This document shows, piece by piece, positions 60 through 12,898 of a stretch of 64,000 bases of DNA (positions are counted from its first letter, which is position 1; the number at the start of each line of letters is the position of its first letter). A program made the translations under genes and the position numbers. The DNA lies in NCBI GenBank assembly GCA_003167555.1, contig PMSN01000009.1, positions 62,001-126,000 of the forward strand, written 5' to 3'. The DNA comes from Spartobacteria bacterium (GTDB lineage: Bacteria; Verrucomicrobiota; Verrucomicrobiia; Chthoniobacterales; UBA10450). The notes under the pieces are model-generated. The model was not told the origin of the DNA, did no database searches, and saw only the letters and a list, made by a program, of their open reading frames with translations.

Positions 60-788
60 TCATCGCTCGAAAACGATAATCAGGATGCCGACGGCGCAGA
101 GCAAGATGCCCATCAGTGCGCTCTCGTATTTCTCCAGCGCGCCCAGCTTTATTTTGCTCAGACCGGCGAGCGTGAGCGACGTAAAGATCACCATTCCGGC
201 AACCGTCGCCACCGAGAGCACAGCCGTGAGCACCGCGAACCCTGCCCAACCGTAACGGATGCCCGAAACGTAAAACGGAACAAATCCCTCACAGGGAGAG
301 AACGTCAGGAATGCAAGCAAGCTAAGGATCGCGGCACGATCGGAAGTTCGGCGCGGCTGGTACTCATGCTCATGCTCATGCTCATGCTCATGCTCATGTT
401 CATGTTCATGTTCATGCTCGTGCTCGCTCTGATGCTCATGCAAATGCTCGTGAGGATAATGAAAATGCACATGACCTTTTCCCAAGACCTGACGCAAAAG
501 GTAATACAGCCCAAACAAGAGAAGCGCTCCACCAGCAATCCTGGGAAACCATTGGCCGATGCTGCCGCTCAACGCAGAACCAAACAAAGTGATCGCCAAA
601 CCCAAGGCGGCCGTCACCAGGACATGGCCAGTGCCGGCCAGCGCTGTGACAGCGATTGTTTTCGGGCGGCTCCATCGTTGCACTCTGGATGTCAGCACAA
701 ATGGCAACCAATGGGTCGGGATGGCGGCATGAAAAAATGCGACACCGAAACCCGTGACGGCAATTGTGGTGAGGACAGTTTGATTCAT
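60..788 (-). CDS. Histidine-rich nickel/cobalt-type membrane transporter
   Basis: A 242-residue integral membrane protein with about six hydrophobic segments, three on each side of a cytosolic-type loop. Residues 106-142 are almost only His and Glu, an alternating HE tract that would bind Ni, Co or Zn ions. The first helix carries His20 and His26 (HAAIPTHW) and a later helix carries SPCEGF, both plausible metal-path residues. The overall plan fits the NicO/RcnA/UreH-like metal transporter group; whether it imports or exports is not visible. It stands alone, ending 59 bases from the window edge, with a tRNA gene upstream. The DNA of the tract is a CAT-GAG hexamer repeat that is likely to vary in length between strains. 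Confidence 0.75.
   Translation of the reverse strand: MNQTVLTTIAVTGFGVAFFHAAIPTHWLPFVLTSRVQRWSRPKTIAVTALAGTGHVLVTAALGLAITLFGSALSGSIGQWFPRIAGGALLLFGLYYLLRQVLGKGHVHFHYPHEHLHEHQSEHEHEHEHEHEHEHEHEHEHEYQPRRTSDRAAILSLLAFLTFSPCEGFVPFYVSGIRYGWAGFAVLTAVLSVATVAGMVIFTSLTLAGLSKIKLGALEKYESALMGILLCAVGILIIVFER
363..440 (-). repeat. Hexanucleotide repeat encoding the His-Glu tract
   Basis: About ten near-perfect copies of the hexamer CATGAG (minus strand), with a few CATGAA and CACGAG variants, lie in frame inside the metal transporter gene and encode alternating His and Glu. Loss or gain of a unit keeps the frame, so copy number can change without killing the gene. Confidence 0.9.
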
Positions 789-1045: not shown

Positions 1046-1306
1046 TCAGGGCGTTGGGTGACGCTGGTTCCGGACGACGGGCGGGCCACGTGAGAAAGTC
1101 GGATCGCTCCAATCCGATTGGCCGGTCGATCCACCGAGCGCGCGCACTTGCACGGTGCAGGTGGTTCCCGGCGTCAGCCTATCGAAATAGATGTGCTGCG
1201 AAGCAGCTGTGGACACGCTCGGCTGCCAGCCGTCTTTTGGTCGATTGAGGCCGTCTAAATTGACTTCAAGAACGCGACATCTAAGTTCAGCCCCTTGGAA
1301 ACCCAA
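1046..1306 (-). pseudogene. Relic of a fibronectin type III protein C-terminus
   Basis: The minus strand is open for 86 codons and reads like the last beta strands of a fibronectin type III domain: the peptide LTPGTTCTVQVRALGG followed by STGQSDWSDP is the usual closing pattern of FN3 domains in small structural proteins I associate with Verrucomicrobiota. No upstream part of such a protein is present, since the TPR gene starts at 1295, and the usual short tail after DWSDP is replaced by an unrelated sequence. I read it as a truncated remnant rather than a working gene. It lies beside tRNA-Pro, a common place for DNA to insert and decay. Confidence 0.55.
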
Positions 1307-2998
1307 TCTGAAAAAAACGAACGGCGATTCATCAAGCTGATCGTTGGAGGAACCCTCGGTTTAGTTTTTTTCATCACGCTGGCCGTCATCGGCGTGCACT
1401 TTTTTCGTCAATGGCAGGAGCGCCACCTGGTCCGCGTCTCTGCGGCCTATCTCAGCGGGGGCGACATGAAAGCCGCGATGCTGACCGCCCGGCGGGCCTT
1501 GCAAATGAACTCGGAGAACATAGATGCCGCCCGTCTTATTGCGCAGATCGCCGACCGTGCCGGAGACAAGGCAGCGTTGGATTGGTGGCGTAAAGTGGTT
1601 GGGCTCCAGCCACACAACATCGAGGACGCCTTGGGACTCGTCCGTTCAGCCTTGCGTGCCAATGATCTCGCTACCGCTGAAAAGACCCTCGCTTCTTTCG
1701 ATGACGCGGCGAAGCAAACCGCCGGCTACCACGCAGCCTCTGGACGTCTCGCCGAGATGAAGAAAAATCCCGCGGAGGCGGAAAGTCATTGGGCAAAAGC
1801 CAGTGAGATCGCCCCGGACAATCTCGGCTACCAATTCCAGCTGGCGCTTATTCGTTTGGGATTCAACGATCCCGCGAAGCGAGAAGCGGCTCAACAAACG
1901 CTTGAGCGATTGCGGGCCGATCCGAAGCAACGCACGGCCGCCACGCGCGCTTTGATCCTCGATGGGGTCGCCCATCACGCCGATGTCAAACGCATGCAGG
2001 CCCTGGCCGGCCAGCTCCAAAGTTATCCCGAAGCCACTTTGGGCGATCGGCTCCTTTATCTGGAAATTCTCCGCCAGCTCCACGATCCCGCTTTCGACGA
2101 ATATCTAAAGAGACTGGAGCGAGAGGCTATTTCGAATGCGGCGGATTTGGCGAATTTGCTCTCCTGGATGAGCGGCAACGAAACGGCCGCGGCGGGGATA
2201 GAATTCTCTAAGAGTTTACCTGAGGAATCTCGGGAAAAATGGCCGGTGCCACCATCGATCGCAGCCCTCTATTCCAGCGTGAAGGATTGGCCTGGACTGG
2301 AACGGATGATGAGAACGACCGAGTGGCAGTCGCACGATTTTCTTCGTCGCGCCTTTCTCTCGCGCGCGCTCCGTGGCCAGGACAAAAAATTTCCTTCGGA
2401 GCAGGAGTGGCTCGCGGCCCAAAAGGAGGCTTCCCTGCAGCCACAGTCTCTTCTGATGCTGGCGCGCACGGTGGCTCTGTGGGGCTGGGAAAACGAAACC
2501 GTCGATCTGCTTTGGATCCTGGCAAAGAATGACGAGACAAAGCTGGAGGCACTCCAGACGCTCTATCAACACTACGCAAAGAAGGGCGACACCTCCGGCC
2601 TTTACCGCACACTCATCCGGCTCGTCGAGGTCGTTCCGAATGATTTGGTTCTGCAAAACAATCTAGCCCAAGTCTCACTGCTCCTCGGAGCGGACCGGGA
2701 GCGCGCCCGCAAAATCGCCGCAGAACTCACGAGCAAGGAACCTTCAAACGGGTCGTTCCTATCGACCTACGCTTTTTCTCTTTACGCGAACGGCGACGTA
2801 AAAGGAGCGCTGCAAGCGATGGATAAATTAACCCCGGACCAACTTCGCGATCCATCGTTGGCGGCATATTATGGTATCGTTCTCGCCGCCGCTGGTCAGA
2901 AAGAGAAAGCGCGCGAGTATCTGCGGCGGGCGAGCGAAGCAAATCTGCTTCCCGAAGAAAGAGCTTTAATCGCCAAGTCTGAGAGCGGACTAAACTAA
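1295..2998 (+). CDS. Membrane-anchored TPR-repeat protein
   Basis: A 567-residue protein with one N-terminal membrane helix (about residues 14-37) followed by a long alpha-helical region with TPR-like pairs, for example around residues 45-75, 80-110, 125-165 and 440-560. TPR arrays bind other proteins, so it may act as a scaffold or assembly factor at the cell envelope; no partner is evident. The start is TTG at 1295: only this start includes the membrane helix, and the next Met is inside the first repeat. It is monocistronic and converges on the PEP-CTERM-like gene, with a strong hairpin between them. Confidence 0.72.
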   Translation: METQSEKNERRFIKLIVGGTLGLVFFITLAVIGVHFFRQWQERHLVRVSAAYLSGGDMKAAMLTARRALQMNSENIDAARLIAQIADRAGDKAALDWWRKVVGLQPHNIEDALGLVRSALRANDLATAEKTLASFDDAAKQTAGYHAASGRLAEMKKNPAEAESHWAKASEIAPDNLGYQFQLALIRLGFNDPAKREAAQQTLERLRADPKQRTAATRALILDGVAHHADVKRMQALAGQLQSYPEATLGDRLLYLEILRQLHDPAFDEYLKRLEREAISNAADLANLLSWMSGNETAAAGIEFSKSLPEESREKWPVPPSIAALYSSVKDWPGLERMMRTTEWQSHDFLRRAFLSRALRGQDKKFPSEQEWLAAQKEASLQPQSLLMLARTVALWGWENETVDLLWILAKNDETKLEALQTLYQHYAKKGDTSGLYRTLIRLVEVVPNDLVLQNNLAQVSLLLGADRERARKIAAELTSKEPSNGSFLSTYAFSLYANGDVKGALQAMDKLTPDQLRDPSLAAYYGIVLAAAGQKEKAREYLRRASEANLLPEERALIAKSESGLN

Positions 2999-3098: not shown

Positions 3099-3806
3099 TT
3101 AAACGATCGACACAGTTTTCTGCGCGGCGCGCCGCCGGCGAAGAATGTGCGTGCAGGAAACAGCTGCAATCAGTCCAACGATGGGGAAGAGAGTGCTCAT
3201 TTCGGGCACAGGCGTGATTGTGCCCCGCAAAGCGACCGGGAGAATATCCAGCGCCCCTGCCGCAACCGAGATGAATTGGAAATTTCCGGTTATGTCCACG
3301 AATTGATCGTCGAAGGTGCTCCCGTAAGCCCCACCAATCTGGGTCCCGAGCGTACCTTGGGTGTTCGATCCAAAAAGCAGAAACGATTCGCCAGGCTGGA
3401 TGCTGCCAACAGAGATTTGCAGGCCGGTAAAGCCTTGGGAAAGGATCGAGCGCAAATCCAGCTGAATGTAATTTGAGGGAGTGCCGCCGCTTGTTTGCAG
3501 CTCGTTATCCAGTGTGCCAACCAAGCCGAGACCGCGTTCGGAGCCGCCTCCGCTGGCGGCCAAATTCTTGAAGTATAATTCGTGAGGCGTATCCGCCCCC
3601 GGGACATTGTCGTATCCGTCCGCGGTAATGGTGTATCCAGATTGGGTAAAGTTTAGAGAGGTTGCTCCAGCGTCGCCATTGGCTGCCGTGGGGTTCAACT
3701 GCCACGTAATGACTGTGGCCCAGGCTGAACAGGCGGTTAATGCGCCGATGCAGCAGAGTGTGCGAAGCGAATTCGCGAGGAAGCGGTTGGTCGTTGATCT
3801 TTTCAT
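3099..3806 (-). CDS. PEP-CTERM-like exported protein
   Basis: A 235-residue exported protein. A signal peptide with a KR-rich start and a hydrophobic core ends near SAWA, about residue 30. The mature part is beta-rich with many Gly, Ser, Thr and Asn. The last 40 residues show the tripartite sorting plan: a short PVPEMST motif, a hydrophobic helix, then an RRRR cluster. In PEP-CTERM systems this tail is cut and anchored by an exosortase; none is in the window. The motif is VPEM rather than the classical VPEP. The start at 3806 (MKRSTTNRF) gives a normal signal peptide; a longer frame to 3914 would add 36 polar residues. The function of the mature part is unknown. Confidence 0.72.
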   Translation of the reverse strand: MKRSTTNRFLANSLRTLCCIGALTACSAWATVITWQLNPTAANGDAGATSLNFTQSGYTITADGYDNVPGADTPHELYFKNLAASGGGSERGLGLVGTLDNELQTSGGTPSNYIQLDLRSILSQGFTGLQISVGSIQPGESFLLFGSNTQGTLGTQIGGAYGSTFDDQFVDITGNFQFISVAAGALDILPVALRGTITPVPEMSTLFPIVGLIAAVSCTHILRRRRAAQKTVSIV

Positions 3807-4521
3807 TTTTGTTTTGGCTAGTTTTTTTGCGATTAAGACCCGGCTTTTGTTCTGATTGGTTCTGCCGGTCTCGTAATGTTTTTCATAATTGTCATAAATG
3901 AGTCGCAACGTCAATAATTATTTTCGTACCCCCTGCTTAGAAAAGTTCTATCAGGGCTGTGTTTTGAGAGCAACAAAATCTTTTAGAAATCTTCGGCACT
4001 CTCGCCAAGGGGGCGGCACCCAGGCTCATTTCCCTCGAACCCGGCATTTTCGGGGCCTGGGCTGGCGACCGTCGCACTCTGCGGTTGTCGTCGCGGAAGA
4101 GACTAGCCGGGCGCCCTGTTCGAGACCCTTGCCAGGCCCGACGCGCCGCTTTGACTCGCGTCCGCAGGGAAACCGGCCGCCGGCGGTATCATCGGCGGCG
4201 CGGAACGGCTCTCGGGGCGACGTGCCGCCATCGACATAAGGCAAAATTCCATCGTTGTGAAACCCGTTTCAATCCCTGCGGCTCCGGTACATGGCGATGA
4301 CGATAATGTTATTGAACGTGCTATCCATGCTACCCACCGACGATGCGATGGATCGTAATTCGTCGAAAAGGATCGACAGAATCCCGCCAAGCCGCACGAC
4401 GGTTTGTGAATCAATCCGGCGCAGGCTCAACGGGACCCGTCTCGCGGATGAATCGGCTGTGAGTGGCCTGAGTTCTGTCAGCGCTTACTTGTTTGATGCG
4501 CGCCGCGAATACGTTGTTTTT
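3807..4521. other. Unexplained intergenic region of about 0.7 kb
   Basis: No convincing gene. Bases 3807-3960 are AT-rich and should hold the promoter of the PEP-CTERM-like gene. From about 4000 the DNA is GC-rich. One plus-strand frame, 4150-4345, reads smoothly without a start codon (it includes NSIVVKPVSIPAAPVHGDDD) and could be a decayed coding fragment. I found no tRNA, riboswitch, or 6S, SRP, RNase P or tmRNA signature by eye. Confidence 0.4.
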
Positions 4522-5094
4522 TCAGAGATTCCGCCAGGTAAAATGGCTTCCTTGAAAGGCTGCCTGTAGATCTTTGAAATCAACGGCACGACTAACGAAC
4601 TGGAAGCGCACTTGCTCATTGCCACGATTCAGAAACATCATTGAGCGCTGGTAGTTATCACCGTAGAGAGTGTAGGAAACTATCACGAGGAAAGTCTCTT
4701 TCCGCCCGATCAAGAGCGGGTTTTTCTCCTGCGACACGAGAGTGACGTTCGTGCTTCCTGCAGGAACAGAGGCGAGCGCCTCTGCCGCCAGCTTCTTCAT
4801 CGTTTCATCGTCGAAGACCCCTGGCTGGCTGAGGCTAATTCTCGAGATCGTGCCCTCGGCTTGTGCCTTCCCTGGCGGATGGAGGGTGAACCTGGATGTG
4901 CTGCCGGAATACTCCCAGCCCGTGGGCGGACCGTAAATAATGTCTTTGCCGCTCTCATCTGAGAAAACGAGAAACTTGACCTTCGCGCCATCCAACCTCG
5001 CCTCGCAAACCTTCGGTGCGAGCCGCAGATCAGCGCGCGCCGAGGCGATGGAAAGCGCGCCGAGCAGCGATAGGAGAGTTAGAGAGTGGACCAT
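4522..5094 (-). CDS. Exported protein of the prepilin-like operon
   Basis: A 190-residue protein with a clear signal peptide (cleavage near SARA-DLRL, about residue 21) and no other membrane segment. I do not recognise the mature domain; it is a mixed alpha/beta sequence with one Cys. Its start overlaps the end of the upstream PilX-like gene by 16 bases, so the two are probably translated together, and it is the last gene of a four-gene prepilin-like operon. A role in pilus or pseudopilus assembly, or as cargo, is inferred from position only. Confidence 0.7.
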   Translation of the reverse strand: MVHSLTLLSLLGALSIASARADLRLAPKVCEARLDGAKVKFLVFSDESGKDIIYGPPTGWEYSGSTSRFTLHPPGKAQAEGTISRISLSQPGVFDDETMKKLAAEALASVPAGSTNVTLVSQEKNPLLIGRKETFLVIVSYTLYGDNYQRSMMFLNRGNEQVRFQFVSRAVDFKDLQAAFQGSHFTWRNL

Positions 5095-6956
5095 TTGCCT
5101 TTGACGTAGCTATAAACCATGATCGAACCTGGGGGTGGTTTCGTCTTGAAGTTGCTGTCGAAGTACCATTGACGATCTGGAGGGACATACACACTCCCTT
5201 TTCCCCACTCGCCGATGGATTGCTTGCTCTGGTAAAGTTCAACCATCGAGCCGTAGTAGGTGAATTTCTTGCCCGTCCAGTCCTCCAGAAAACGCGGGAA
5301 GTTTTCCGCGCCACCACTGTAAGAGCCATCGCCTCCAACTGGAGCCGTCGGAACAATACCAGAAATAATTGCCGCGTTAACCGTGGTGTGCGAAGCGACC
5401 GGCACAGTGCCGGAAGCCGCATCGCTCCAGCTATTCGAAAGGATGTTAATGGCATCGGCTAGAATCGAAACGGGGGCGCGCGTGTAACCCGCTACCTGCG
5501 GCGTAACTGCATCAACCGGATTTCCAGAATCCGATGGAGGACTCCCGCCTGTATTGAAATCCCCCTGGATATAAACAGGATTGTTGCTGGCGATGGTCAA
5601 TCCGGCCGGTGGAATTTTGCTCCCGTTCTTGAGGCGAATCCCTCTCCTCGCCCCGGAACTGTTGCTTGCATCGTAAATATAAATGATGGGGTTGGGGAAG
5701 GCGGTTTTATAACTTGGCGGCGAGCTGGCGGCCGTAAGAATCTGGCTGATGTCGAGCGTCGCGAGTTTGATACTGGCGCCTTCACGGTTGTCCTGGATCG
5801 TTTGATTCGTGGTAATCGCGCCGTTGAACATGTTGTAGAGCGAACCGCTGTTGAGAACATTTATCGTTCCGTCGAAGACACCGGCGCTGGAGTGAGGCGT
5901 ACCGATGGTGTAGGAATTGTCTGCGTTGATCCTGATAACCACGGCGGCCTGGTTCCAATAGCGGCCGGTTGCCAATGGATCCGCATAACCGGCGGCAGGT
6001 ATGTCAATCAGTTCGTGATAGCTGTCGTTGTTCGGATTTGTGTCTGCGGTGTTGAAGATTTGCGTCGAATCCAATCCGAATGGCTGCTTGGCGTCGTCGT
6101 GAGCCGGTGGCAGGTTGGAAGGGTAATTGGGCGCGGTCGGGGTTTCGGGATGTTGCCCGTCGCCGGGCTTGAACCCCGCGGTGGGATTCGCGGTTGTCGG
6201 CGCGAACCAATCTGAACCGTACGTCACTTTGTCGGCAAAGGTCAGAGTGTTGTGACCAGTGTAGAGATCGGAATTGGTATGGACCCAGCCCGTGACGATA
6301 AATTGCGGTCCCGGGTGAATTTCCAAAGGATCGACATAAAAGATGGCAAAATTCCAGGGAGAGATCTGCTGCTTCTGAAACACGCGGCGGACTTTCGCGA
6401 CGACCGTGCCGGTTGGTCCCAGCGCCGGCAGCGTCACATCGGCCGAAGCCATGTAGTTAAAGTTTGCGGCGGTCGTGTTGAGGGTTCCGGTTTGGGCCAG
6501 CCCTAGTTCGGGTTCTGGAGTTGCGCTCGCCCCGGCGAGTGTGTTCCATTCGGCGTTGACTCCTACTACTTTGTAATTGGAAATGGTGTAGGTGGCATCA
6601 TAATCTCCCGGCTCATCAGTCGTCGGGTTGATGTTCACCCCTCTTTTTACGAAATTGGAAACAGCCGGCAGGTTCAATTGCGCCGCCGTCGGCAGGGCGA
6701 TAGATGTAAATGCGCTCGTTGGCTGGGCCGTGGTAGGGGCTGTGCGGGAGATCGTTCTCCAATTGGCAAATAGGATGTCAATGCAACCGTCCCCGGCGGC
6801 GACTGCGGTCTCAAGGGTATTGCTGCGCTGCACGTGCCGGCTAACCGTGTAGGTGTATTCGCCCGCTACGGCGACGACAACCATCAGGGTCGCCAGGACC
6901 GACATGACGACCACGAGCGAACTGCCAGATTGTTTCCGAAGATGGATCGTTTTCAT
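5079..6956 (-). CDS. Large PilX-like pilus assembly protein
   Basis: A 625-residue protein with an N-terminal hydrophobic helix (about residues 11-33) that begins with SGSSLVVVMSVLATLMVVV, the form seen in PilX/GspK-like minor pilins, though it lacks the canonical GFTLxE. The long remainder is Pro, Thr, Asn and Gly rich and resembles a beta-rich extracellular domain. It overlaps the upstream prepilin gene by four bases (ATGA) and the downstream exported protein gene by 16. By position it would be the large tip or minor subunit of a type IV pilus or type II pseudopilus. The domain beyond the helix is unfamiliar to me. Confidence 0.68.
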   Translation of the reverse strand: MKTIHLRKQSGSSLVVVMSVLATLMVVVAVAGEYTYTVSRHVQRSNTLETAVAAGDGCIDILFANWRTISRTAPTTAQPTSAFTSIALPTAAQLNLPAVSNFVKRGVNINPTTDEPGDYDATYTISNYKVVGVNAEWNTLAGASATPEPELGLAQTGTLNTTAANFNYMASADVTLPALGPTGTVVAKVRRVFQKQQISPWNFAIFYVDPLEIHPGPQFIVTGWVHTNSDLYTGHNTLTFADKVTYGSDWFAPTTANPTAGFKPGDGQHPETPTAPNYPSNLPPAHDDAKQPFGLDSTQIFNTADTNPNNDSYHELIDIPAAGYADPLATGRYWNQAAVVIRINADNSYTIGTPHSSAGVFDGTINVLNSGSLYNMFNGAITTNQTIQDNREGASIKLATLDISQILTAASSPPSYKTAFPNPIIYIYDASNSSGARRGIRLKNGSKIPPAGLTIASNNPVYIQGDFNTGGSPPSDSGNPVDAVTPQVAGYTRAPVSILADAINILSNSWSDAASGTVPVASHTTVNAAIISGIVPTAPVGGDGSYSGGAENFPRFLEDWTGKKFTYYGSMVELYQSKQSIGEWGKGSVYVPPDRQWYFDSNFKTKPPPGSIMVYSYVKGKWSTL

Positions 6957-7855
6957 TGGTAGGTAGTAAGACGTGCTCTCATGGGGACTTGTCCGTTGAG
7001 CAGGATATTGGCTGATTTGAAGCCGCGATTGCTGTAAGTGAGATCGGACGTCGAAAGATCGATCGCGGCTACGAACCGAAAGTAGAGGGCGCCGGCTGGC
7101 GTGTTTGGGGTGCTGAATGGCTTGGGGTTGGTAATGTCAGTGACCATGTTGCGATTGCCCAGCCGGTGCCATACCAGCGCATTATTTGCGACGGAATACC
7201 AGCAGCGGTCGGCAATGAAGCAAACCACATCTCCGATGCCACTGCCCGTGCCTTGTATCTGCACCGGCAACAGCGTCCCAGCAGGGGAAGGAGCCGGCGA
7301 AGGAGCGGGAGACGGCGCCGGGATGTTGGCGAGTGTGATCTTACAGTTATTCCAGGGTCCAGTTACCGAGGTGATATCGCCCTCAATCTGATGGGTCGGA
7401 ACAATCAGGCGCTGGTTTACCGCCGGCATGGGGGACGTAGCGCTGGGCAGAGTAACCCGGACAAAATTTTGACTCCCCGGCAGGGCCGGAGTGTCAGCAA
7501 TGATCTGGAGAGGCCCCATTGACCATTGCTGGAAGGCAATTCCGGCTGCCGGTCCCGCCGCGGCGCCCGCGGTGAGAGCAGGGGTTATTCCAGTTGCATC
7601 CATGACCACGTTTCCATTCGCGTCGACGTCGATCAGATACGGCAAGGATATCGCGGAGTGCAGGTCCTGGACCATCTGGAGCATGGCGACACGCGCCTGC
7701 TCGTGCGCGGTGTTCACGGCCGTGTTCTTGGCGCCCAGGATTGTGCCGATGTTTAAGAGCGAATAGATGATCAAGCCGAGAACGCCGACCATGCCAGCCG
7801 TGACCGATATTTCGACCAGGGTCAGGCCGCTCCGGGAATGCGTGGAAATCTTCAT
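6953..7855 (-). CDS. Prepilin-like protein (PilW/GspJ type)
   Basis: A 300-residue protein with a class III signal: a short basic leader, then SGLTLVEISVTAGMVGVLG, in which the G-L junction is the prepilin peptidase site and Glu at mature position 5 is present. A single hydrophobic helix follows, then a beta-rich domain with a Pro-Ala-Ser linker (APSPAPSPAPSP) near residue 185. The length suits a PilW or GspJ minor pilin. ATGA overlaps with the genes on both sides point to coupled translation and fixed stoichiometry. Confidence 0.75.
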   Translation of the reverse strand: MKISTHSRSGLTLVEISVTAGMVGVLGLIIYSLLNIGTILGAKNTAVNTAHEQARVAMLQMVQDLHSAISLPYLIDVDANGNVVMDATGITPALTAGAAAGPAAGIAFQQWSMGPLQIIADTPALPGSQNFVRVTLPSATSPMPAVNQRLIVPTHQIEGDITSVTGPWNNCKITLANIPAPSPAPSPAPSPAGTLLPVQIQGTGSGIGDVVCFIADRCWYSVANNALVWHRLGNRNMVTDITNPKPFSTPNTPAGALYFRFVAAIDLSTSDLTYSNRGFKSANILLNGQVPMRARLTTYQ

Positions 7856-8358
7856 ATGTCGGAAGTGCGGATGGTGCTCATCGAAAATGAGTAAGATCGA
7901 TTGAGATAGGTGTAGGTGACCGTGACCACCGCCTTGTACATGTAGGTAGTAGTGGTACCAGGGTTTATGTCGGTCACCGTGGTCGTCATTGTGCCTGGAA
8001 CAATGACGATGTTGTTGCTGTTGATATCTTTGTACTGATAGACGACTACGGCCTTTGTCTGAGTGCCGAGTGCTAATTCCGGCGGAATCTGCACCGTCCC
8101 GTCGTTATTTGTTTTCTGCGGATTGAATGGGCCGTCCGATTGAATCAAATCGATCTGATTCAACGCGGCCGCGCAAACGCCGGTCCCATTGCGGCTCATA
8201 TCCGCCATCGAATTGAACTTGGTCAGTGCGCCGAGAGTAGAAACGACGCCGATTCCGATCACGCCAATGGCGACCACGGTCTCCACCAGCGTGAAGCCAC
8301 CTGTCCTAAAAAGGGGCGATGCCTTATGAGGTTTATGGAAAATCATCATGAAACTCAT
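7852..8358 (-). CDS. Prepilin-like protein (PilV/GspI type)
   Basis: A 168-residue prepilin, first gene of the operon. The leader ends in Gly-Gly before FTLVETVVAIGVIGIGVVS, so the peptidase site, Glu5 and hydrophobic helix are all as expected. The remaining 130 residues are a small beta-rich domain, consistent with PilV or GspI. I chose ATG at 8358 because AGG lies eight bases upstream; ATG at 8376, 8349 or 8346 would change only the leader. The overlap with the next gene is four bases. Confidence 0.75.
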   Translation of the reverse strand: MSFMMIFHKPHKASPLFRTGGFTLVETVVAIGVIGIGVVSTLGALTKFNSMADMSRNGTGVCAAALNQIDLIQSDGPFNPQKTNNDGTVQIPPELALGTQTKAVVVYQYKDINSNNIVIVPGTMTTTVTDINPGTTTTYMYKAVVTVTYTYLNRSYSFSMSTIRTSDI

Positions 8359-8376
8359 GAGCAACACCTGTGCCAT

Positions 8377-9003: not shown

Positions 9004-9465
9004 ATGGCCGCCGAGACGATCCTCAATCGCAAGGCGCTGCGCGATTTTCACATCCTCGAGCGCTACGAAGCCGGCATCGAACTGAAAGGCAGCGAGGTCA
9101 AATCGATCCGCGCCGGCAAGGCGAACATCAGCGACGCGTTTGTGCGCATCGAGAAAGGTCAGGCCTTTCTTTATAACGCCGATATCCAACCCTACGCGCA
9201 AGCCAGCCAGGATATTCCGTCTCCGAAACGCGTGCGCCGCCTCCTTCTGCACAAACAGGAGATCGACAAACTCTACGGCCTCACCGCGATCGCCGGTCGC
9301 ACCCTGGTGGTCTTGAAGTTGTACTGGAAAAACGGCCGTCTGAAATCCGAGATCGGCGTAGCGCAGGGCAAAGTCGCGCACGACAAACGCGCCGACTTGA
9401 AGAAACGCGCAACCGACCGGGAGACGGAACGCGAAGTCGCCCGCTTCAATCGCCGGCACGGGTAG
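9004..9465 (+). CDS. smpB: SsrA-binding protein SmpB
   Basis: A 153-residue protein matching SmpB throughout: AGIELKGSEVKSIRAGKANI near the N-terminus, then NGRLKSEIGVAQGKVAHDKR and a basic tail ending RFNRRHG. SmpB binds tmRNA and brings it to ribosomes stalled on broken messages so that they are released and the nascent peptide is tagged. Length and motif order are normal. It probably shares transcription with rpoZ. Confidence 0.97.
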   Translation: MAAETILNRKALRDFHILERYEAGIELKGSEVKSIRAGKANISDAFVRIEKGQAFLYNADIQPYAQASQDIPSPKRVRRLLLHKQEIDKLYGLTAIAGRTLVVLKLYWKNGRLKSEIGVAQGKVAHDKRADLKKRATDRETEREVARFNRRHG

Positions 9466-9483
9466 AAGTGATGCGTTAATTCT

Positions 9484-9579
9484 CGTCATTCCGAAGCGGA
9501 GCGCAGCGGAGTCGAGGAACCCCGCGACGGAACGTGCAGACGGCTCCACGGGATCCCCTCGACTTCGCTCGGGATGACG
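9484..9579. repeat. Palindromic intergenic repeat, family A, copy 1
   Basis: Two inverted arms: CGTCATTCCGAAG... on the left and ...CTCGACTTCGCTCGGGATGACG on the right, separated by about 25 bases. The same arms recur at 46115-46199, 52718-52797 and 56626-56698, with half copies near 49795 and 50985. The left arm here has a small insertion (GCGGAGCGCAGCGGA). Confidence 0.85.
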
Positions 9580-9633
9580 GTGAAGCATTTTCCACTTGTC
9601 ACTCGTCACTTGTCACTCGTCACTCTCTCCGAA

Positions 9634-10851
9634 ATGTCTCGTCCGCGCTCACCACTCTTCGTCCTCTTCCTCACCGTCTTCATCGATCTGGTGGGCTTCG
9701 GCATCATCATTCCGATCCTGCCCCTCTACGCGGAGCAGTTCCACGCCACCCCGGTCGCGATCGGCTGGCTCACCGGAATTTATTCCGGCATGCAAATCAT
9801 CTTCACGCCGATCCTGGGAAAACTATCGGATCGCTTCGGCCGGCGACCCGTTTTGATGGTGAGCATTGCGGGCACGGCGATCGGCTTTGCGCTCATGGGA
9901 ATGGCGACGGCGCTGCCGCTCCTTTTTGTCGCGCGCATTCTGGCCGGCATCACTGGCGGCAACATCTCGATCCCCCAAGCTTACATCGCCGACGTGACCG
10001 CTCCCGAGAATCGATCCAAGGCGATGGGATTGATCGGCGCCGCCTTCGGTCTCGGTTTCACTTTCGGTCCGATGATCGGCGGAATCATGAGCCGCATTTC
10101 TTATAGCGCCCCGTTTTATTTTGCGGCGGGTTTGGCCGTCGCCAACGCGGTGCTCGTTTATCTGATTTTGCCGGAAAGCCTATCGCACGAGCACCGCGCC
10201 AGGCCACATGAAGATGCACCCAGCACCGAGGTTTTCCGGCATGGACACGGCTGGATGTTTTCCATCGTGGTGGCGACTTATTTTTTTCTCATCGCCGGGT
10301 TCGCGATCATGACGACGCTCTTCGCGCTCTTCACCGAAAAACGCTTCGGCTACGACGCACGGGCCAATGGCTATCTCTTTGGATTCATCGGCATCATCGC
10401 CGTCATCGTTCAGGGCGGTTTGATCGGGCGGTTGATCAAAATATTCGGCGAAGTGGCGCTGACGCGGACCGGCATGATCCTGACCACACTCTCCCTCGCA
10501 TTATTGCCGCTTAGCAATAATCTCACGATTCTCCTGGTCGTCTGCGCCGGACTCGCAGCCGGCAGCGGTTTCGCCAGTCCGCCCCTCAGTGGACTCGCCT
10601 CACAGCTGATCGATCGCACCTGGCAAGGTCGCGCACTCGGCGTGATGCAATCCGCAGGAAGCACGGGACGGCTGGTTGGCCCGCTCATCGGCGGTTGGCT
10701 GCTGATGTTCGATCTGCGAAAACCGATCAGCGAATATGGCCGCACTCCTTTTCTCGTCGGCGCGTTACTTTGTTTCATCGGCGCGGTGCTGGCGTTTTGC
10801 GTGAAGAAGCCGGCCGGCGATCGCTCGATCGAAAATGTGCCCGCCCTGTAG
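9634..10851 (+). CDS. MFS transporter, tetracycline-efflux (TCR/Tet) type
   Basis: A 405-residue carrier with twelve predicted membrane helices. The N-terminal half has the family pattern: VFIDLVGFGIIIPILPLYA in helix 1, then the loop 2-3 motif GKLSDRFGRRPVL and, in helix 4 to 5, a proline-poor AGITGGNIS segment. This is the plan of drug:H+ antiporters related to TetA, but the actual substrate is unknown. I chose ATG at 9634 (MSRPRS) because the upstream frame runs through simple repeats. It stands alone between two palindromic repeats. Confidence 0.85.
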   Translation: MSRPRSPLFVLFLTVFIDLVGFGIIIPILPLYAEQFHATPVAIGWLTGIYSGMQIIFTPILGKLSDRFGRRPVLMVSIAGTAIGFALMGMATALPLLFVARILAGITGGNISIPQAYIADVTAPENRSKAMGLIGAAFGLGFTFGPMIGGIMSRISYSAPFYFAAGLAVANAVLVYLILPESLSHEHRARPHEDAPSTEVFRHGHGWMFSIVVATYFFLIAGFAIMTTLFALFTEKRFGYDARANGYLFGFIGIIAVIVQGGLIGRLIKIFGEVALTRTGMILTTLSLALLPLSNNLTILLVVCAGLAAGSGFASPPLSGLASQLIDRTWQGRALGVMQSAGSTGRLVGPLIGGWLLMFDLRKPISEYGRTPFLVGALLCFIGAVLAFCVKKPAGDRSIENVPAL

Positions 10852-10887
10852 GCGGCGCACGAAACAACGAAAGCAGCCGCGGCAACT

Positions 10888-10963
10888 GGTAGGGCGAGAC
10901 TCTGTCGAGCCGAACTTAACATATGGCGCTAACCGTTCCGGCCCGACTGAGTCTCGCCCTACC
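10888..10963. repeat. Palindromic repeat, GGTAGGGCGAGACTC arms
   Basis: Inverted arms GGTAGGGCGAGACTC and GAGTCTCGCCCTACC enclose about 45 bases, directly before the thpR start. The outer GGTAGGG/CCCTACC ends are shared with the repeats at 42032-42116 and 45384-45437, so it may be a relative of that family with a different core. Confidence 0.8.
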
Positions 10964-10975
10964 AGAATTCAACAG

Positions 10976-11530
10976 ATGAGCACGAAACGGCTCTTCGTCA
11001 GCATCGAGCTTCCGCACGCGATCACGCAATTTCTCGCAGAATTCGATCCGCACCTGCGCGGTGTGCGCTGGCTCGCGCCGGAGCAGATGCATCTCACGCT
11101 CAGTTTTCTCGGGAACGTTTCCGCCGAGACGGAGGAAAAGCTTCGCGCAAATCTTTCCGCCATCTCCTGGAAGGCGTTTTTCCTTCCTCTTGTCGGCCTC
11201 GGCACATTTCCCGGCAAAGGCCGGCCGAATATTCTCTGGCTCGGCGTGGGCCGGGGGCATCCGCATCTTTTTCAATTGCACAAGCGCGTGCAGGAAGCCG
11301 CACTCGCCGCCGGCCTCGAGCCCGATCTGCGCGCGTTCCATCCGCACATAACGCTCGCGCGTTGCCGTGATGTTTCGGCGGAATCGCTGCGGCCATTTCT
11401 GCGGGCCCACGCCGGTCTCGATGCCGGCATGATTCACGTTGATTCCTTCTGTTTGAACTCGAGCGAGCTCACGCCGGCACGCTCGGTTTACACCCGCGAG
11501 CTCGTGATTCCCAGTTGCGACAGTCGATGA
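10976..11530 (+). CDS. thpR: RNA 2',3'-cyclic phosphodiesterase
   Basis: A 184-residue member of the 2H phosphoesterase family (LigT/ThpR). The two catalytic motifs are present: MHLTLSFLG near residue 44 and HPHITLARC near residue 125. The family opens 2',3'-cyclic phosphates on RNA ends. I chose ATG at 10976 (MSTKRLFVSIELP), which gives the usual N-terminus; the longer frame would translate the preceding repeat. Length is normal. Confidence 0.9.
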   Translation: MSTKRLFVSIELPHAITQFLAEFDPHLRGVRWLAPEQMHLTLSFLGNVSAETEEKLRANLSAISWKAFFLPLVGLGTFPGKGRPNILWLGVGRGHPHLFQLHKRVQEAALAAGLEPDLRAFHPHITLARCRDVSAESLRPFLRAHAGLDAGMIHVDSFCLNSSELTPARSVYTRELVIPSCDSR

Positions 11531-11584
11531 GCGCCGATTATGCGCGCGAGCAAACTGGGGCTTACGCAGACTTCAATCGTGCCG

Positions 11585-12898
11585 CTAAAGGAATCTAAAC
11601 GTCCGAAGGATAGCTGCGAGGTCATCGTTCGTCCCCACGTCGCCGGCGCTTTTCAGCCCCGGGTCGACCCAGGTTCCGTATTGGTCTATTCGCACGCCCT
11701 GCAATTTCCCGGGCGGATGAATGAGGATCGATTTCGCGCCCGAGACGAACAAGGGTTTCCGGTCGCGCGTAGTAAACTCCCACGTCATGCCAAAGCTATT
11801 CATTCCGTTCAAGGTAAAGGTCGAAATCTCCTGGCAGTTAAATTGCGGATGCTGCTGCGGCCACTGCTTGCCCAGGTCCTTTAGCATCTCGTAGTCTTCC
11901 TTGTTATTGTCTGGAGTCGAGGTTTCGTACCAGGAGACAGTAAAGGATTCAGCCAGGTCCTTTCCGTTGGCGCCCAACTTCTCGACCACGATAAAGATTC
12001 CTTCGACTTGGGGCCTCGCGACAAAGCTCGTAGGATAGCTGAAGCTGAACGCGACGAAATGGGGCTGTAAGTCGGGCCGAAGTTTGTCGCTCGTACTGAC
12101 ATAGGTCTTCCAACCGGCAGGCGCCTGGCTCGCCGTGGCCTCGGAGGCATTCGAGCTATTCGGAGTTACGCTCTTGTCCGAGGGTAACACTTCCTTCCGC
12201 ATGACCGTGATGTTATTTTTCGAACTTTGGTATCGATAAAGCGCCAATCCTCCAATTGCGAAAGCGATCATCAGAAGCGTTAGACAGCCAGCGCCGAGAA
12301 CCCAAGGCAGCTTGCTCGCTTTTGGTGGCGCCGGTCCTGCCGAAGCGAGAGACCCAGGAGGATTAATCATTGGCGCAACCGGCGGGGAGGCGTTGCTGAA
12401 GCCAACAGCTGGCGGTGATTGTGCGGGGAGAGGTGGAACCGCTGATGAAACCGATCGATTCTGTAGCTTCCGAATACTACTCCAGATCTTCGTGACGAGA
12501 AGAACCGCCAAAACGATCCAAAGTGAGTAGCCAAGAAGATAATCCCAAAAGGGAACCGAGTAACTCGGCAACGGCTTGGGCAATAAACCCTCCGCTTGGT
12601 AACTGGATATCTTGGCGGCGGTTAAGTCGTAATAGTGAGAGCTATCATCCCTGATCTGGAGAACATAACCATCGTCGTGCACGAACACGCCCGCGAAGAT
12701 GTAAAGGCTACTGACCTTGTGGGCCAGGTCGAGCGCCTGCCCCTTATCGTTCTTAATATTGGTGTCCTGAATCTTGTAGATCGATTCTTGACTGCCGAAG
12801 AGGGCCGCGTGCGTTTTCTGCGGGATAAACAGCAGAATACTGCCGATGATCAGGAGAGCGAGCAGGACGCTGGATGACTTCGGACTCTGGTTTTTCAT
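11585..12898 (-). CDS. Membrane protein with two helices and a PsbP-like C-terminal domain
   Basis: About 437 residues. An N-terminal hydrophobic signal (residues 10-30) is followed by a short globular part, a membrane helix around WDYLLGYSLWIVLAVLLV, a Pro/Ala/Ser-rich stretch, a second helix (LPWVLGAGCLTLLMIAFAIG), and a C-terminal domain of about 180 residues. That domain (PHFVAFSFSYPTSF, then FTLNGMNSFGMTWEFTTRD) resembles PsbP-like or lipoprotein folds used to score user-visible stress proteins, but this is weak. I do not recognise a specific function. ATG at 12898 is preferred to 12919. It has no clear operon partner. Confidence 0.6.
   Translation of the reverse strand: MKNQSPKSSSVLLALLIIGSILLFIPQKTHAALFGSQESIYKIQDTNIKNDKGQALDLAHKVSSLYIFAGVFVHDDGYVLQIRDDSSHYYDLTAAKISSYQAEGLLPKPLPSYSVPFWDYLLGYSLWIVLAVLLVTKIWSSIRKLQNRSVSSAVPPLPAQSPPAVGFSNASPPVAPMINPPGSLASAGPAPPKASKLPWVLGAGCLTLLMIAFAIGGLALYRYQSSKNNITVMRKEVLPSDKSVTPNSSNASEATASQAPAGWKTYVSTSDKLRPDLQPHFVAFSFSYPTSFVARPQVEGIFIVVEKLGANGKDLAESFTVSWYETSTPDNNKEDYEMLKDLGKQWPQQHPQFNCQEISTFTLNGMNSFGMTWEFTTRDRKPLFVSGAKSILIHPPGKLQGVRIDQYGTWVDPGLKSAGDVGTNDDLAAILRTFRFL

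Follow-up and report, generated by a model that had tools for sequence, protein, structure and literature searches.

A four-gene prepilin cassette predicted to encode a ComZ-like large pilin and an exported MOG1/PsbP-fold partner: a candidate accessory tip complex of a type IV pilus

ComZ is a protein of Thermus, and it offers the closest described parallel to the predicted architecture of the large pilin reported here. The comZ gene is encoded together with pilA1-4, and ComZ, which carries Gly at position +5, has been argued to sit at the pilus tip (PMC6561018); two minor pilins of Thermus are described as resembling GspI and GspJ (PMC5131608). ComZ and PilA1-A3 of Thermus thermophilus (6qvi) have several features in common with our locus, namely a large pilin encoded with small minor pilins, the lack of Glu5 and a β-solenoid placed before the last pilin strand (predicted in our case), but ComZ shows no profile-detectable sequence similarity to the 625-aa family. 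We take the GspI- and GspJ-like Thermus pilins to be the comZ neighbours, and to our knowledge the comZ operon contains no MOG1/PsbP-fold gene. In the GspI-GspJ-GspK tip of type II secretion systems, three minor pilins likewise follow one another and the third is the large one; the domain inserted in GspK is helical, however, according to PMC6561018, as opposed to the β-solenoid predicted here. HpsA-D of Nostoc punctiforme likewise combine a large protein with adjacent pseudopilin genes, and parts of our large protein match the HpsA model, although this model has 1503 positions and the window protein matches it over a short length, with a score well under the cut-off. TcpB-TcpF also pairs a large tip pilin with an exported soluble protein, but belongs to a type IVb system, and TcpF is said to lack known structural homologs. 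Finally, the Verru_Chthon cassette (TIGR02596, 02598, 02599 and 02600) is a four-gene prepilin cassette, one of which lies elsewhere in the genome studied; it differs in its large protein and has no recognised 190-aa gene.

The window—the whole 64,000-nucleotide stretch analysed, equivalent to contig C24:62001-126000 of its own genome—contains the following features:

7852 to 8358, minus strand: 168-aa minor prepilin, PilV/GspI-like, read from an inner ATG start
6953 to 7855, minus strand: 300-aa minor prepilin, classed as PilW/GspJ-like chiefly from its position
5079 to 6956, minus strand: 625-aa ComZ/GspK-type tip pilin (predicted)
4522 to 5094, minus strand: 190-aa Sec-type exported protein with a MOG1/PsbP/DcrB/Eag fold (predicted)
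3099 to 3914, minus strand: PEP-CTERM-like exported protein, a linked neighbour outside the overlapping operon, with its start perhaps near 3839

An alternative ATG at 8376 would extend the first prepilin to 174 aa (ORF 7852-8376). The original observation of four linked reading frames was confirmed from the sequence, with overlaps of 4 (7852-7855), 4 (6953-6956) and 16 bases (5079-5094). The longest overlap recurs in five relatives (L010, L012, L013, L015 and L034), counting the 190-aa gene from an assumed, conserved MV start. The search of other genomes that had been suggested recovered the same gene order in relatives, which argues that the cassette is not a product of chance; a literature search covering few subscription papers found no description of it.

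The 168- and 300-aa proteins proved to be the two clear prepilins they had been taken for: each has a type III prepilin signal with Glu at +5, and both qualify as type IV pilins or pseudopilins by sequence, with weak model matches. The 168-aa protein matched N_methyl at E 7.8e-4, scoring 19.4 bits in one search (cut-off 21.2) and 21.9 bits, just over the cut-off, in a second; it also gave weak matches to ComGE, PilV and GspI models, and its gene is the one inside the window among 15 genome-wide N_methyl matches. Within the 300-aa family, IV_pilin_GFxxxE matched eight of 19 aligned members, Verru_Chthon C four and GspJ one, and the window protein itself matched none of the three at E 0.01.

The 625-aa protein combines a prepilin-like leader and a hydrophobic helix with Val at +5, and Glu is absent from this position in all 24 aligned large pilins (the window protein and 23 relatives). 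Pfam has no family for these proteins, and neither the window protein nor any of its aligned members had an accepted match there, the one hint being PilX_N (0.026, 1 of 24). The AlphaFold2 model (pLDDT 82.5) consists of a helix (residues 13-71), pilin strands, a β-solenoid spanning about 198-606 and a last pilin strand (614-624). Its best structural match was Thermus ComZ (VIA Z 13.8), a result that rests on VIA-align across 166 chains with an rmsd of 11.5 over 349 residues; ice-binding β-solenoids followed (VIA Z 9.4-10.2), the same kind of second match as is reported in the ComZ study (PMC6561018). Foldseek alone returned no usable match (best E 2.4), profile hmmsearch of the PDB (A1, A3, E 10) did not find ComZ and gave chance-level matches only, and phmmer searches of the PDB behaved in the same way. 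The defining ComZ feature, a pilin domain with an inserted β-solenoid, appears in the predicted model only, and sequence homology to ComZ was not seen by hmmsearch of the PDB. The model is that of a tip pilin of the GspK/ComZ type, so that a domain first described as unfamiliar takes on the ComZ arrangement—an architecture now predicted for a family member outside Thermus, in the window.

The same holds for the second domain previously considered unfamiliar, since structure prediction assigns the 190-aa protein to the MOG1/PsbP fold group. Its AlphaFold2 model (pLDDT 88.9) matched CyanoP (2xb3; Foldseek E 4.2e-6, VIA Z 12.9) and, in fold only, an Eag chaperone (6xrf_A, Z 11.5). PsbP/CyanoP, MOG1, DcrB, LpqN and Eag chaperones all share the predicted fold (Z 9.7-12.9) but have 5-16% identity and other partners and compartments. 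Because photosystem subunits and type VI immunity proteins are likewise among the structural matches, the fold does not in itself indicate a chaperone. Pfam gave no accepted match for this protein or its aligned members (hint DcrB, 0.041, 1 of 20), and the profile produced one odd PDB match, BH0842 (0.0072 over 50 residues). A restriction of the partner to Chthoniobacterales was considered and rejected: with four remote downstream genes added, the profile found others, and remote versions lie downstream of genes for ComZ-like pilins in one Nitrospirota and in further Verrucomicrobia. Chthoniobacter flavus Ellin428 carries two loci with 190-like and ComZ-like genes (L068 and L088). As controls for such remote matches, the profile gave 0.2% against the PA14-domain protein of locus L106 and 5.2% against the 168-aa profile.

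The large-pilin family comprised 414 confirmed stretches (pattern scan, one genome per species), of which 79 loci were kept. The sources of these loci and of six plasmid matches include Verrucomicrobia, anammox and other Planctomycetes, Nitrospirota, Omnitrophota, Zixibacteria, Methylomirabilota, Acidobacteria, Thermus, Deinococcus and a cyanobacterium. At least one prepilin lies upstream of the large pilin in 57 of the 79 loci and at least two in 49, as called by a regular expression that yields a few spurious hits and with some contigs ending at the spot. Across 58 genomes, the large pilin and the 190-aa family occur together in 24, each alone in one, and neither in 32 (Fisher 4.7e-14, which is not a true probability as the genomes are related). 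By our reading, most matches to the 190-aa family (27 of 31) are neighbours of a large-pilin gene, in one case convergently, and 30 of the 79 loci have no recognised adjacent partner; in many partnerless loci, different genes, frequently on the opposite strand, occupy the position that follows the large pilin. The conserved MOG1/PsbP-fold partner is the notable part of an otherwise known kind of system, and its tight pairing with the large pilin offers a handle on tip-pilin loading.

Genome-wide model searches placed no secretin, pilus ATPase or prepilin peptidase in the window, in agreement with the initial reading: the genome has 11 T2SSE ATPase matches (10 over cut-off), three secretins and one A24_N peptidase, all located elsewhere. 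The nearest of these matches are two PilT-type ATPases (C24:155796-157653), and the ATPases over cut-off divide into four PilB-type and six PilT-type, labels that are our own naming. In anammox bacteria and Nitrospirota, pilus machine genes adjoin the same kind of cassette, which, with the distant position of the genome's own machinery, supports the idea of a tip cassette that relies on a machine from another locus. The anammox cassette comes after PilB-PilB-PilC, and the adjacent ATPases of three such loci (L097, L106 and L116) all best match one of two ATPases on contig C7 of our genome, C7a or C7b (6/6, in order, with modest margins). We therefore weakly favour the C7 PilB-PilB-PilC operon as the machine, with the C23 ATPase next. 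The assignment is weak because ATPases near a Nitrospirota locus with a 190-like gene (L120) best match C23 and not C7, and because the C7 ATPase is widespread, being found in 23 of the 25 genomes that carry the large pilin and also in 25 of the 33 that do not.

Gene order, predicted folds, co-occurrence and neighbouring genes are the observations from which we infer that the proteins form a complex at the tip, which machine they use, how the partner acts and what is bound. We consider it reasonably probable that these genes specify an accessory complex at the tip of a type IV pilus, assembled by a machine encoded elsewhere and binding an outside ligand, because the order of small, small and large minor pilins resembles that of Thermus and because the 625-aa model matches ComZ ahead of the ice-binding β-solenoids. 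In the inner membrane, the 168-, 300- and 625-aa pilins would come together as an initiating complex and be cleaved by the genome's prepilin peptidase, a PilB/PilC machine from another locus would push the complex out, and the β-solenoid would cap the filament and bind something extracellular. The 190-aa protein would be exported to the periplasm as a dedicated partner that most likely holds, checks or senses the large pilin before or during assembly. The periplasmic site is suggested by locus L095, a single case in which one protein joins a 190-like domain with a second membrane segment and a pair of receiver domains; this fusion argues for a partner role rather than a cargo role. The pairing of partner and large pilin may also help to show what these uncultured bacteria attach to with their pili.

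As to the ligand, extracellular polysaccharide or matrix rather than DNA is a tentative choice. It is suggested by the partial HpsA match, present in all 24 aligned large pilins, together with the net negative charge of the solenoid region (-6 to -20, again in 24 of 24). The match to the HpsA equivalog NF038301 is made up of short pieces, scoring 67.8 bits for the 625-aa protein (cut-off 400) and 32.4 and 20.8 bits in a second search, and no protein of the genome exceeded the cut-off. The linked PEP-CTERM-like gene, along with unrelated PA14-domain exported proteins in the 190-aa slot of two Scalindua loci, points the same way. Homologs of this gene (E 1e-20 or better) occur in 12 of the 58 genomes, in nine of these 12 within 10 kb of a large-pilin gene; its label was given by eye from the C-terminus (VPE, helix, RRRR), with no Pfam or NCBIfam match. 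The link to polysaccharide is thin, since the literature found assigns no role to HpsA, and for the HpsA-linked polysaccharide PMC12188702 tends to favour a Wzx/Wzy route.

Alternatively, the 190-aa protein could be the real effector, carried out on the tip pilin as a passenger. The linkage of genes for a soluble exported protein and a large tip pilin recalls TcpF on TcpB (PMC9565799), and a PA14-domain exported protein in the same slot would suit cargo; the L095 fusion to a membrane protein speaks against it, and we regard this option as improbable, if still a serious one. On the side of a tip complex with a periplasmic partner, a broader version is slightly more doubtful: the 190-aa family might be a general partner of ComZ-like tip pilins that shields or inspects them before pilus entry in the manner of Eag (DUF1795) chaperones, which bind the transmembrane helices of their partners (PMC7773334), with the L095 membrane receiver protein reporting tip loading to the cytoplasm. 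If true, the pairing would constitute a tip-assembly checkpoint for type IV pili, nothing of which kind was found in our literature search (few subscription papers covered).

We judge it unlikely that the 625-aa protein is a functional ComZ—a competence receptor catching DNA at the tip, which a retracting pilus and ComEC would then take up. The predicted fold is the same, the operon order is similar, and ComZ binds DNA alone and with PilA2; ComEC occurs in 53 of the 58 genomes (23 of 25 with the large pilin) and PilT over cut-off in 52. However, ComEC is also found in 30 of the 33 genomes that lack the large pilin, and such near-universal genes are uninformative about the cassette. Two genomes (G005 and G046) carry the large pilin with no ComEC match. 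The net negative charge of the solenoid region counts against binding of double-stranded DNA, although not decisively, given that the ComZ solenoid, too, has no positive patches and yet ComZ binds DNA (PMC6561018). Moreover, eight of the 79 loci have more than one large-pilin ORF, which may suit varied ligands better.

A role in the pseudopilus of the type II secretion (Gsp-like) system on contig C16 is rather less plausible still: the GspI/GspJ/GspK-like order fits, and C16 has a GspG over cut-off with a GspJ-like protein under it, but that system seems to have minor pseudopilins of its own, and the cassette neighbours in anammox bacteria and Nitrospirota are of the PilB/PilC/PilM type. A copy of the Verru_Chthon cassette named in NCBIfam was rejected as highly improbable despite weak matches to B (E 0.34) and C (the four aligned members above), because no window protein exceeds any cut-off, B matches (most under cut-off) show no clear link with the large pilin (19 of 25 genomes with it versus 20 of 33 without, Fisher 0.27), and the same genome has a better four-gene candidate on contig C23. 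No NCBIfam model matched the 770-aa large protein of that C23 cassette at 1e-3, and its alignment with the 625-aa family is confined to the N-terminal helix (hhalign 8%); the cassette itself has a B protein over cut-off and C and D proteins under it.

The four ORFs of the cassette lie on the minus strand, spanning 8358 (or 8376) to 4522 with overlaps of 4, 4 and 16 bases, as the original prediction had claimed, and form a real, conserved and probably functional tip-pilin cassette. The window corresponds to contig C24:62001-126000. Machine genes had also been reported missing nearby, and this held up: in a genome-wide family search of the Spartobacteria genome (4.2 Mb, 98% complete), all 3 secretin, 11 T2SSE ATPase (10 over cut-off) and 1 A24_N peptidase matches fell outside the window. 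A second, different four-gene prepilin cassette in this genome, Verru_Chthon-like, was found on contig C23 (L131 2740-7519, i.e., G000:C23 about 376739-381518), with its protein B over cut-off and C and D under.

To characterize the 625-aa large pilin, an AlphaFold2 model was built on a 24-sequence alignment (pLDDT 82.5, pTM 0.80), with these features:

13-71: single long N-terminal helix
124-198: strands, followed by a long stretch of mostly short strands
614-624: final strand

The top VIA-align match was the Thermus large pilin ComZ (6qvi; Z 13.8 over 349 residues), covering model residues 42-625 at an rmsd of 11.5 that could come from a differing inter-domain angle, followed by ice-binding β-solenoids (Z 9.4-10.2, rmsd 3.4-3.6) inside 198-606. 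Since neither Foldseek alone nor sequence profiles reached ComZ from the 625-aa protein, the link is one of predicted fold, not of sequence. None of the 24 aligned sequences, this protein included, had an accepted Pfam match. The NCBIfam model HpsA matched 24/24 (best E 1.1e-24), though its cut-off is 400 bits and the window protein reaches 67.8. Residue +5 is Val in 17 members, Ala in 4, Ile in 3 and Glu in none. The large domain, previously called unfamiliar, has in its predicted model a known architecture, that of ComZ, in a family broader than the single studied example.

The 190-aa protein had likewise been described as unfamiliar, and its model (pLDDT 88.9) instead adopts the MOG1/PsbP fold, with structural matches to CyanoP 2xb3 (Z 12.9), LpqN (12.1), EagT6 (11.5), human MOG1 (11.3), DcrB (10.8) and type VI immunity proteins (9-11); this fold alone does not give its function. 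By eye, in a set of 20 N-termini, the 190-aa protein shows a Sec-type signal that ends near ARA-D, with no cysteine at the signal end.

The new point is that this MOG1/PsbP-fold protein is a conserved partner of the large pilin. Across 58 genomes (the Spartobacteria genome plus genus, family and order), each family occurred in 25 and both in 24, and the single 190-type match without a large pilin (G009) is a short fragment. The cassette is therefore accessory: its distribution is patchy, whereas 52/58 genomes have a PilT-family protein over cut-off. A one-genome-per-species scan gave 431 pattern stretches, 414 of them confirmed, the best 80 of which were kept as 79 loci; among the scan matches, the named sequences most similar to the 625-aa protein come from records labelled Spartobacteria or Chthoniobacterales. 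With the first profile and a distance filter, the 190 family lay directly downstream in 41/79 of these loci. In L091, L102, L114 and L117, the exported protein encoded downstream (189-218 aa) turned out to be related (hhalign 94% over 169 columns), and a profile enlarged with these four picked up the untrained loci L113 (E 1.5e-10), L095 (1.4e-19) and Nitrospirota L120 (2.4e-6), where the gene begins 7-9 bases past the large-pilin ORF, together with a second copy in L117. By hhalign, the L120 protein matched both profiles, at 77.5% and 92.7%. In total, the pair was present in 49/79 loci (from the best 80 of 414 stretches); 30 had no recognised 190 partner, the sequence stopping within 600 bases in 3 of them. 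All but one of the 54 matches in these loci follow the large-pilin ORF on the same strand, and the remaining one (L059) adjoins it convergently. As the 79 loci were selected by the large pilin, genome-wide context was taken from the 58-genome matches, where 27/31 adjoin a large-pilin gene by our own count.

A fusion in L095 favours a periplasmic, membrane-near role for the 190 family, as far as one case from a metagenome-derived genome can suggest. This 941-residue protein (9300-12125), whose gene starts 7 bases past the ComZ-like ORF, carries a MOG1/PsbP-like domain at 21-200, then a membrane-like stretch near residue 286 and a pair of receiver domains; everything but the MOG1/PsbP-like domain aligns with a relative in L119, which lacks that domain.

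Regarding the pilus machine, two PilB-type ATPases and PilC precede the cassette in Scalindua L097 and L106 and Brocadia L116, the first ATPase being nearest C7a and the second C7b of the Spartobacteria genome in 3/3 loci, by modest margins. The C7 operon there comprises PilB, PilB, PilC and one prepilin. Since C7-type ATPases are widespread (48/58 genomes; 23/25 with the large pilin and 25/33 without), this operon is only a candidate machine. In L120, prepilins, large pilin and 190-like gene sit amid PilM, secretin, PilB and PilC genes, and the ATPases best match that of C23. A PilA-like gene lies upstream of the cassette in two relatives (L051, L070); its homologs in the Spartobacteria genome (71-83% identity) lie outside the window, and none was found within it.

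Downstream of the cassette lies a PEP-CTERM-like exported protein (3099-3914, minus strand), whose relatives reach E 1e-20 or better in 12/58 genomes. The large pilin is present in 11 of these 12, and the two genes are <10 kb apart in 9 (on one strand in 7/9). The TPR protein at 1295-2998 (plus strand) shows a partial match to the PEP-CTERM-system protein PrsT, which at E 2.8e-19 stays far below cut-off. Passages of PMC1569441 link PEP-CTERM proteins to exopolysaccharide, and in Nostoc, parts of PMC12188702 describe an exosortase for such proteins as required for surface retention of the pilus-motility polysaccharide, for which a Wzx/Wzy route is also indicated. Sections of PMC6495340 and PMC4284469 present Nostoc hpsA-D as encoding a protein of unknown role plus pseudopilins, which may act with the pilus in polysaccharide export. 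Given these parallels, the PEP-CTERM link and the negative net charge of the solenoid region in 24/24 members (-6 to -20), we lean weakly towards polysaccharide as the putative tip ligand. At the window edge, a membrane-like protein possibly involved in metal transport is encoded at 60-788 (minus strand), beside tRNA-Pro (878-953); it contains a long His-Glu repeat.

A contig labelled Methylomirabilota (L115 54-5528) carries three tandem ComZ-like ORFs, and in Scalindua (L097 9537-10244, L106 9366-10073) the slot after the ComZ-like gene holds a PA14-domain exported protein. Plasmid relatives occur in Thermus oshimai and Picosynechococcus (L146 3901-7476 and L147 1311-6678), where the large pilin comes after three genes annotated as prepilin-type or type II secretion proteins in each case.
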